In this document: one piece after another, positions 45,964 through 47,849 of the stretch
How positions within the stretch are numbered: the stretch's first letter is position 1
Layout: the number at the start of each line of letters is the position of its first letter
Assembly: GCF_947077775.1 (NCBI RefSeq)
Contig: NZ_CAMTTE010000001.1
Coordinates: 2,694,501 to 2,758,500 of the forward strand
DNA length: 64,000 nt
Reading direction: 5' to 3'
Origin: Salinibacter pepae
GTDB taxonomy: Bacteria > Bacteroidota > Rhodothermia > Rhodothermales > Salinibacteraceae
Notes under the pieces: model-generated
What the model saw: the letters and a program-made list of their open reading frames with translations, nothing else
Told to the model about the DNA's origin: nothing
Databases searched by the model: none
Made by a program: the position numbers and the translations under genes

Positions 45964-46491
45964 ATGAACTCTAATTGTCCAACCATGCCTGCGCCTACGA
46001 CCGCAGAACAGGACCAGCAAGAGCGGTGGGTGGAAATTCGCTCGGATCCCGTTCTCCGCGAGCTTCCTTACAAGATCGAAACCAACCGCAGAGGACAGCT
46101 GATTTTGAGTCCACACTCCGCGTCGCATTCCGACACGCAGGGCGACCTCATCGCTCTTCTGCACGAGCACGCAGGCGGGGGACGGGTCCGGCCGGAGTTC
46201 CCCATCGTGACGGCGAAGGGGACAAAGGTTGCCGACGTCGTCTGGTGCACGGCCGCGCGGAGGAACGAGATGGAAGAGACGGGGGATCCCCCCACCTTGG
46301 CCCCGGAGGTGTGCATCGAAGTCATGTCCGAGTCGAACGACTGGGACGAGATGGACGAGAAGCGTGCGCTCTATCGCGAGGCGGGAGCCAAGGAGGTTTG
46401 GGTTGTAACCGAAGAGAAGAGCATCCGCTTCTTTGCCGATGAGGAGCGAGACACGTCCGATGTAATCCCGGGCGTCCCAAATCGCCTGTGA
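45964..46491 (+). CDS. Uma2-family (restriction-endonuclease-fold) protein
   Basis: About 175 residues. The family pattern RELPYKIETNRRGQLILSPH (near residue 40), then RPEFPIVTAKGTKVADVVWC and LAPEVCIEVMSESN with YREAGAKEVWVV, are the core strands of the Uma2/DUF820 PD-(D/E)xK fold. The Asp of KVADVVW and the Glu of CIEVMS are the predicted catalytic residues. The start may be 45964 or the ATG at 45985. The role of this family is poorly known; it is abundant in multi-copy genomes. Confidence 0.85.
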   Translation: MNSNCPTMPAPTTAEQDQQERWVEIRSDPVLRELPYKIETNRRGQLILSPHSASHSDTQGDLIALLHEHAGGGRVRPEFPIVTAKGTKVADVVWCTAARRNEMEETGDPPTLAPEVCIEVMSESNDWDEMDEKRALYREAGAKEVWVVTEEKSIRFFADEERDTSDVIPGVPNRL

Positions 46492-46648
46492 GGAACGGTT
46501 GGTGTTCAGAACGTCTGCGGGCAGATTGTCCTTCCGAATTGTCTGGAGAGACGAGGCTGACCGAACTGGATACAGTAAATGTTAGAGTTCTGTGTAGAAC
46601 CGAACGGGCGTTGACATCCCTGCCTGCGTACCGTACCGTACGGTAGTC

Positions 46649-46792
46649 ATGAATCAGCGCGCTCTCCCATCCGCCATTCCGTCCGCGGCCAGCGCCTCTG
46701 TCGGCGCGACCGAAGGCCGCTGCGCCTTTGCCCGCTTCTATCTGGGCTACGTGTATGTCTATTTTTATCTCTGGACGGCCGGCGGCTCGTAG
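46649..46792 (+). CDS. Aromatic-amino-acid leader peptide
   Basis: A 47-residue open frame, MNQRALPSAIPSA and so on, whose C-terminal part is ARFYLGYVYVYFYLWTAGGS with five Tyr, two Phe and one Trp codons close together. It lies 137 bases upstream of the chorismate mutase gene, with a strong rho-independent terminator in between. This is the arrangement of an attenuator: when charged Tyr/Phe/Trp tRNA is scarce the ribosome stalls on these codons and the terminator is avoided. The reading is by translation; regulation is inferred. Confidence 0.7.
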   Translation: MNQRALPSAIPSAASASVGATEGRCAFARFYLGYVYVYFYLWTAGGS

Positions 46793-46815
46793 CGCGCGTA
46801 CCCTCTTGTTGTTGC

Positions 46816-46854
46816 ACCCCGCCGGCCGATCGCCTTCGGCCCCGGCGGGGTTTT
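46816..46854 (+). terminator. Rho-independent terminator, candidate attenuator of the chorismate mutase gene
   Basis: A 10-bp GC-rich outer stem pairs ACCCCGCCGG (46816-46825) with CCGGCGGGGT (46842-46851), and an inner helix CCGA/TTCGG encloses a short loop. The right arm is followed by TTTT (46851-46854). It begins 24 bases after the leader peptide stop and lies 76 bases before the chorismate mutase ATG. An antiterminator pairing with the leader was not resolved. Confidence 0.75.
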
Positions 46855-46929
46855 CGCATGTGTGGGCCGATGGCGCCGCGCCCGGTGGGTCCCCCGACGC
46901 ATTCTGACCCCCACGCCAGCGACCCACCC

Positions 46930-47313
46930 ATGTCCACGTCTCCCAGCCCAACGACCGTGCCGGAGGCCCGCGCCCGCATCGACGAGATCAACGAGCGGGT
47001 CGTGGAGCTGCTCGCCGAGCGGCAGGCCATCGTCGACGCCCTCTGCGAGTTGAAGGCCGACGCCGACCGCACTGTGCGCGACCCCGAGCGCGAGGCCGAA
47101 CTGCTGGCCCACGTCCGGGCCGTGGCGGACGAGGCGGGCCTGCCGCCCACCCTCGCCGAGACCCTCTTCGAAGAGATCCTGGCCCACTCCGTCGAGCGCC
47201 AGCGGCGCCAGCGGGCCGACGGGGCCGCGGGGCCGTCCGCCGAGGAGCCGTCCGCCGAGGAGCCCGCGGAGAAGGCGACCGGGGCCGTCTCCACGTGTGG
47301 GGCGCAGGCGTAG
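46930..47313 (+). CDS. Chorismate mutase, AroQ type
   Basis: A 127-residue all-helical AroQ-type mutase converting chorismate to prephenate, the first step towards Phe and Tyr. Helix 1 is EARARIDEINERVVELLAER, followed by the ligand-binding Lys region CELKADADRTV and RDPEREAELL, then EEILAHSVERQRR. The frame is open from 46858, but the ATG at 46930 gives the usual N terminus. There is a poorly conserved acidic tail of about 30 residues after the helical domain. A leader peptide and terminator lie upstream, suggesting control by aromatic amino acids. Confidence 0.88.
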   Translation: MSTSPSPTTVPEARARIDEINERVVELLAERQAIVDALCELKADADRTVRDPEREAELLAHVRAVADEAGLPPTLAETLFEEILAHSVERQRRQRADGAAGPSAEEPSAEEPAEKATGAVSTCGAQA

Positions 47314-47417: not shown

Positions 47418-47849
47418 ATGAGCTCGTCCTCGGACCGCCCGGACTTCGTGCCGGAGTACAACAAGCCGGATGCGCCCGGCCTGCACATGAACTTCGACAA
47501 CACGGTCTCGCTCTACCACATAGTGCGGCCGGACGACGACTTCGAGACGGCGGCGCAGGACGTCTTTGCGCTGCTCAAGGAGGCGCAGGCGGAGTTTCCG
47601 GACTGGCCGCGGGTCCTGTACCTCGACATTCAGGGGCACGCCCGGGACGACGAGCGCCTGGAGGAGGACATGGTGGAGCTGCAGCAGGAGTTTCTGCTCG
47701 CCGCCATGGGCAAGTTCTTCACCGCCCTGGCCCTGCCGCTCGTGTCGGTCGTCAACCCGGACGACCAGGTGAACGACCTGCCGGACGAGCTCGTCCTGCA
47801 GCCCCCCGATGCGGAGCTGCCCGAGGAGACGGCCTGGCCCAAAGAGTGA
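47418..47849 (+). CDS. Conserved hypothetical acidic protein
   Basis: A 143-residue protein beginning MSSSSDRPDFVPEYNKPDAP and ending PEETAWPKE. It is very acidic, and VLYLDIQGHARDDERLEEDM followed by FLLAAMGKFFTALALPLVSV suggests a helical domain with one hydrophobic surface; there is no signal peptide. The function is unknown. The start at 47418 is preferred, although the frame is open earlier. Composition is like the GC-rich core. Confidence 0.72.
   Translation: MSSSSDRPDFVPEYNKPDAPGLHMNFDNTVSLYHIVRPDDDFETAAQDVFALLKEAQAEFPDWPRVLYLDIQGHARDDERLEEDMVELQQEFLLAAMGKFFTALALPLVSVVNPDDQVNDLPDELVLQPPDAELPEETAWPKE

Follow-up and report, generated by a model that had tools for sequence, protein, structure and literature searches.

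The window analysed here is a 64-kb stretch (64,000 nucleotides) of the genome of Salinibacter pepae, and it includes aroQ, a gene for a type-II chorismate mutase that is preceded by a promoter-like sequence, a short open reading frame (ORF) rich in aromatic codons and a predicted intrinsic terminator (Table 1). The product of aroQ matches the CM_2 family (PF01817) at 75.2 bits, against a Pfam cut-off of 27, and it is encoded by the sole CM_2 gene in the 3.63-Mb genome. The leader ORF translates as MNQRALPSAIPSAASASVGATEGRCAFARFYLGYVYVYFYLWTAGGS, followed by a stop codon, and includes the run FYLGYVYVYFYLW, in which five Tyr, two Phe and one Trp codons fall within 13 positions. Between the leader stop codon and aroQ lies a hairpin with the sequence ACCCCGCCGGCCGA/TCGGCC..CCGGCGGGGT, followed by TTTTC, at which a transcript end near 46854 is predicted. 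In these respects the locus is as a first-pass annotation of the window had described it, namely a 47-codon leader of this aromatic composition, then a terminator, then an AroQ gene. Just 3' of aroQ, on the same strand (47421-47849), is an ORF of 142 aa with no match in Pfam or NCBIfam, and similar sequence is found beside aroQ at other Salinibacter loci.

Table 1. Positions of the features of the aroQ leader region within the window
Feature	Position	Strand	Remarks
Predicted promoter, -35 hexamer TTGACA	46611..46616	+	17 nt before the -10 hexamer in 16/21 loci scanned
Predicted promoter, -10 hexamer TACCGT	46634..46639	+	9 nt to leader ATG; implied 5' UTR ~2-3 nt
Leader peptide ORF	46649..46792	+	47 codons, ATG to TAG; homologous leaders at 26 further loci
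Regulatory codon run FYLGYVYVYFYLW, predicted Tyr/Phe stall codons	46736..46774	+	Leader residues 30-42
Predicted antiterminator strand CGGCCGGCGG	46776..46785	+	In the last leader codons; 10 bp complementarity to 46819-46828
Predicted intrinsic terminator hairpin	46816..46851	+	5' arm 46816-46828 common to the antiterminator; kept at all leader loci
Short U tract of the terminator, TTTT	46851..46854	+	5-8 T in many relatives
aroQ, monofunctional type-II chorismate mutase, 127 aa (presumed regulated gene)	46930..47313	+	ATG at 46930; PF01817, E=4.7e-21

The promoter and the aromatic codon run

Within the 64-kb window the motif TTGACA-N16-18-TAnnnT has a single occurrence, at the leader promoter. 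In all 16 loci having the strict form of this motif (TTGACA-N17-TAnnnT) the distance to the leader ATG is 9-10 nt, and at the loci of families f10, f12 and f13 a -10-like element was recognised by eye 6-7 nt from the start codon. A promoter 9-10 nt before the ATG would place the start of the transcript at the start codon itself or no more than about 3 nt away, which implies that the leader mRNA is nearly leaderless. A Shine-Dalgarno signal has been reported to be absent in S. ruber (PMC3155529), and the title of a paper cited in PMC4046766 describes formation of the ilvBNC leader peptide of Corynebacterium glutamicum without a ribosome-binding site. The apparent absence of a 5' UTR raises the question of whether ribosomes initiate on leaderless mRNA quickly enough for the coupling to RNA polymerase in attenuation.

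Only two short ORFs in the window have at least eight aromatic residues in 13, these being the leader and a TTG-started ORF on the opposite strand, and in dinucleotide shuffles of the window (n=60) the mean number of such ORFs was 0.0. A Tyr/Phe-rich leader is present at all 27 loci where a homologous element was found, its codons being those of the product amino acids of the pathway, as in classical ribosome-mediated attenuators. Within the genus, pairwise identity is 0.55 for leader residues 26-42 versus 0.30 for residues 2-25. Tyr and Phe are freely exchanged between genera, and the aromatic run itself is kept. The first-pass annotation had listed one Trp codon beside the Tyr and Phe codons of the run; a Trp codon is found in only 2 of the 13 genus leaders, so that the genus has not kept Trp among the sensed codons. 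With regard to codon choice, 69 of the 92 Tyr codons of the leaders are TAT, whereas in six neighbouring genes TAT makes up only 2 of 38 (the other 36 being TAC), and the Phe codons of the leaders are likewise shifted to TTT.

Distribution of the leader and of the aroQ genes behind it

An aromatic leader and a GC-rich terminator were found upstream of aroQ in each of the 13 Salinibacter-genus genomes searched, the window included. The same pair of elements is present in five other genera of the family (G013, G016, G018, G019 and G023) and in four other families, represented by G033 (f10), G034 (f11), G035 (f12) and G036 with G074-G078 (f13). This brings the loci to 27, 13 from the genus and 14 more, in five families of the order. 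Conservation of the leader and terminator among relatives had been put forward in the first-pass annotation as the check on its reading, and the codons proved to be conserved in this comparison. Farther upstream than the promoter, conservation is lost, and ungapped identity to the window is 0.19-0.41 at -240..-90.

This bears on the possibility that the hairpin is simply the terminator of the upstream gene, with no regulatory role for aroQ. Intergenic terminators are normal and an upstream ORF does end at 46491; against this, a promoter-like motif lies between that ORF and the terminator, and it is the element that is conserved and not the sequence farther upstream. Such an origin of the hairpin is hardly credible.

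The order holds two kinds of AroQ, and the leader and terminator precede one clade only. A tree was built from 102 AroQ domains found in the order, with few columns and rough support; in it the 26 leader-bearing domains group together and 75 of the 76 leaderless ones fall apart from them; the presence of the leader requires 2 changes on this tree versus a mean of 23 when shuffled. The single leaderless AroQ placed among the leader-bearing ones (L105) has a very long branch. No such leader was found before the 20 stand-alone prephenate dehydratase genes checked, and a sample of AroQ genes from other parts of the phylum, with further orders of this class among them, likewise had none.

The enzymes encoded behind the leader are of four architectures. 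The AroQ behind the leader consists of one domain in Salinibacter and in G016; AroQ-DAHP synthase fusions follow the same leader in G013 (L021), G018 (L014) and G019 (L015); in G023 the AroQ domain is fused to a prephenate dehydratase with an ACT domain; and in G033 (L019), G035 (L020) and G036 (L018) single reading frames join chorismate mutase, prephenate dehydratase, ACT and DAHP synthase. Together these loci make up a natural series, with the same regulatory leader retained while the enzyme domain behind it underwent one gene fusion after another. With respect to the Salinibacter pathway itself, type-I DAHP synthase was found in none of six genomes, a type-II DAHP synthase is present and AroQ stands alone; the type-II enzyme gene has no such leader in front.

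The terminator, the alternative pairing and a proposed mechanism

A hairpin and T tract follow the leader in 27 of 27 loci, and in the window the terminator (46816-46854) is GC-rich. A consensus promoter/terminator scan, with thresholds of five T and an unbulged stem, called no terminator here, since the hairpin has a bulge in its stem and is followed by just four T; relaxed searches and folding did find the hairpin. RNA elements that bind a ligand, a tRNA or a protein (T-box, riboswitch or TRAP-like) also commonly have a conserved terminator ahead of a biosynthetic gene, and the short ORF could be incidental to an element of that type. Nevertheless, an Rfam scan of the window gave no match at the gathering score, with the amino-acid leader families (Phe leader, Trp leader) and the T-box included, and a permissive scan gave one sub-threshold match for the leader, on the opposite strand, and none at five related loci. 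An identity as an Rfam riboswitch or T-box was rejected, the permissive scans having returned nothing relevant. Moreover, conservation resides in a reading frame, in aromatic codons and in one alternative helix, and not in an aptamer-like fold, which makes control by such an element very improbable.

The alternative helix is formed between the tail of the leader ORF and the 5' arm of the terminator, which can pair over 7-13 contiguous bp in most loci. Shorter pairings are found in L018, with 6 bp, and in L003 (G004), where one A.C mismatch leaves 5. The terminator 5' arms vary by lineage (CCGCCGGCC, CCCGTCGGCT, CGCTTCCTCG and GTCGGTGCCGC), and leader strand and arm have changed together, as in L015 (AGCCGATGGGTA/TGCCCGTCGGCT), L107 (CGAGGAAGCG/CGCTTCCTCG) and L020 (GCGGCACCGGCGG/CCGTCGGTGCCGC). 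Leader strands pair more strongly with their own arms than with swapped ones (permutation p about 1e-4), and for 12 representatives combined the comparison with shuffled leader tails gave p = 2e-7. Taken singly, the duplex of the window beats its shuffles weakly (p = 0.043), and those of the f10 and f13 loci are not better than GC-rich shuffles. The predicted antiterminator, a feature that the first-pass annotation had not mentioned, is mutually exclusive with the terminator and is preserved across divergent loci.

One could also view the ORF as encoding a functional small, membrane-seeking protein, with the hairpin as its own terminator and aroQ expressed from its own promoter. The part of the leader that is conserved is indeed its aromatic, hydrophobic C-terminal half, and the ORF has a promoter and a terminator of its own. 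However, the length of the leader ranges from about 27 to 52 residues, there is little conservation in its N-terminal half and Tyr and Phe interchange freely; the ORF has been kept before one AroQ clade across the four architectures; and its 3' end stays complementary to the terminator arm, which would be needless for a plain protein gene. We therefore regard a small-protein gene as quite improbable.

For the attenuator reading, the two conformations were compared over the 27 loci by constrained folding in which the ribosome footprint was excluded from pairing. For a stalled ribosome and a freshly completed arm, the mean antiterminator probability was 0.79, and with the ribosome at the stop codon the mean terminator probability was 0.96; without a ribosome, the terminator was predicted in most loci. 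In full-length equilibrium folding the terminator usually wins, in the window with P 0.85 even with the ribosome stalled, and therefore antitermination must be kinetic, that is, decided during transcription. For classical attenuators, such a co-transcriptional decision is accepted. In the window the antiterminator strand ends 4 nt before the leader stop codon, so that it would be covered by a terminating ribosome and free when the stall is early in the run. With a footprint taken to reach about 12 nt downstream of the A site, a ribosome that stalls at the final codons of the run could mask part of the strand.

From this arrangement we infer a course of leader translation, stalling, termination and physiological response. 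Transcription would start a few nucleotides 5' of the leader ATG, as the promoter-to-ATG spacing suggests, with a ribosome following RNA polymerase. With both Tyr-tRNA and Phe-tRNA in the charged state, this ribosome would run on to the stop codon and cover the antiterminator strand, the hairpin would form and transcription would end near 46854. When either tRNA is uncharged, the ribosome would stall in the Tyr/Phe run and leave the strand free to pair with 46819-46828 once the arm has been transcribed, so that the terminator would be blocked and aroQ transcribed. If no ribosome is present, upstream leader sequence is predicted to pair with the antiterminator strand, and the terminator would form. 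Production of chorismate mutase would then probably be confined to conditions in which charged tRNA for Tyr or Phe is scarce. With the conserved run and terminator, the link to one AroQ clade and the preserved antiterminator all in support of the initial proposal of a Tyr/Phe attenuator for chorismate mutase, we hold with considerable confidence that the element before aroQ is a ribosome-mediated transcription attenuator that senses charged Tyr and Phe tRNA.

Relation to known attenuators and the Trp leaders of the order

The closest parallel is the pheL-pheA system of E. coli, where an aromatic leader peptide, an intrinsic terminator and an antiterminator likewise precede a chorismate mutase gene, that of the P-protein with its chorismate mutase and prephenate dehydratase domains (PMC11802643); the regulated enzymes of f10, f12, f13 and G023 have both of these domains as well. 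Unlike pheL, which relies on Phe codons alone, the aroQ leader mixes Tyr and Phe codons about equally, its ORF appears to be nearly leaderless, its sequence is unrelated and without an Rfam match, and its target in Salinibacter is a monofunctional AroQ. A mixed leader (Phe-Tyr-Phe) before an early aromatic-pathway gene is also known from aroR-aroF of C. glutamicum (PMC11802643; PMC4046766). That leader, from a different phylum, has three aromatic codons as opposed to about eight, is placed before a DAHP synthase gene and is reported to respond to Phe and not to Tyr.

According to a survey from 2010, leader-peptide systems had, to its authors' knowledge, been shown only in Proteobacteria and Actinobacteria, to which the survey added Firmicutes (PMC2965389). 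The first-pass annotation took attenuation to be well described in Proteobacteria and Actinobacteria but not in this lineage, which is nearly right. No report of leader-peptide attenuation in Salinibacter or Rhodothermota was found in a literature search that covered few subscription papers and not the older comparative attenuation surveys. However, clues to leader-peptide attenuation have since been described in Flavobacterium psychrophilum, a member of the Bacteroidota, in a passage of PMC9723704 in which aroQ and Tyr/Phe leaders are absent; current NCBI taxonomy places Salinibacter in Rhodothermota, a different phylum. The principle of attenuation is old, and it is the aroQ case and its spread through the Rhodothermales that appear to be undescribed. 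We think it likely that this is a Rhodothermota attenuator with a nearly leaderless ORF and joint sensing of Tyr and Phe, retained by a single AroQ lineage across four architectures, in an order where trpE is also leader-attenuated in many families.

The attenuator search covered the neighbourhoods of trpE, hisG, leuA-type, pabB/menF-type, pheA and DAHP-synthase genes, and the scan found no leader at the hisG, leuA-type and pabB/menF-type loci. At trpE, a leader of the trpL type is present in the same genome. This Trp-rich leader, MIDKSGTTSFGWWLWRPSLRVESPLRA (L180 629-712), has a terminator and a nearly leaderless promoter and lies upstream of the chorismate-binding/TrpE gene at G000:C1:370030-371394. 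It shares the overall logic of the aroQ leader and differs from it in its Trp codons, in the operon that it precedes and in its occurrence in more families of the order. A Trp-rich leader and terminator precede trpE in all six Salinibacter examined, where pairing was judged by eye; outside Salinibacter the leaders were read by script, and WW/WWW leaders with terminators were found before trpE in G015, G016 and members of f2, f3, f5, f7, f8, f12 and f14. Classical attenuation is thereby extended to the Rhodothermales with strong comparative support, with Tyr/Phe leaders at aroQ and Trp leaders at trpE.
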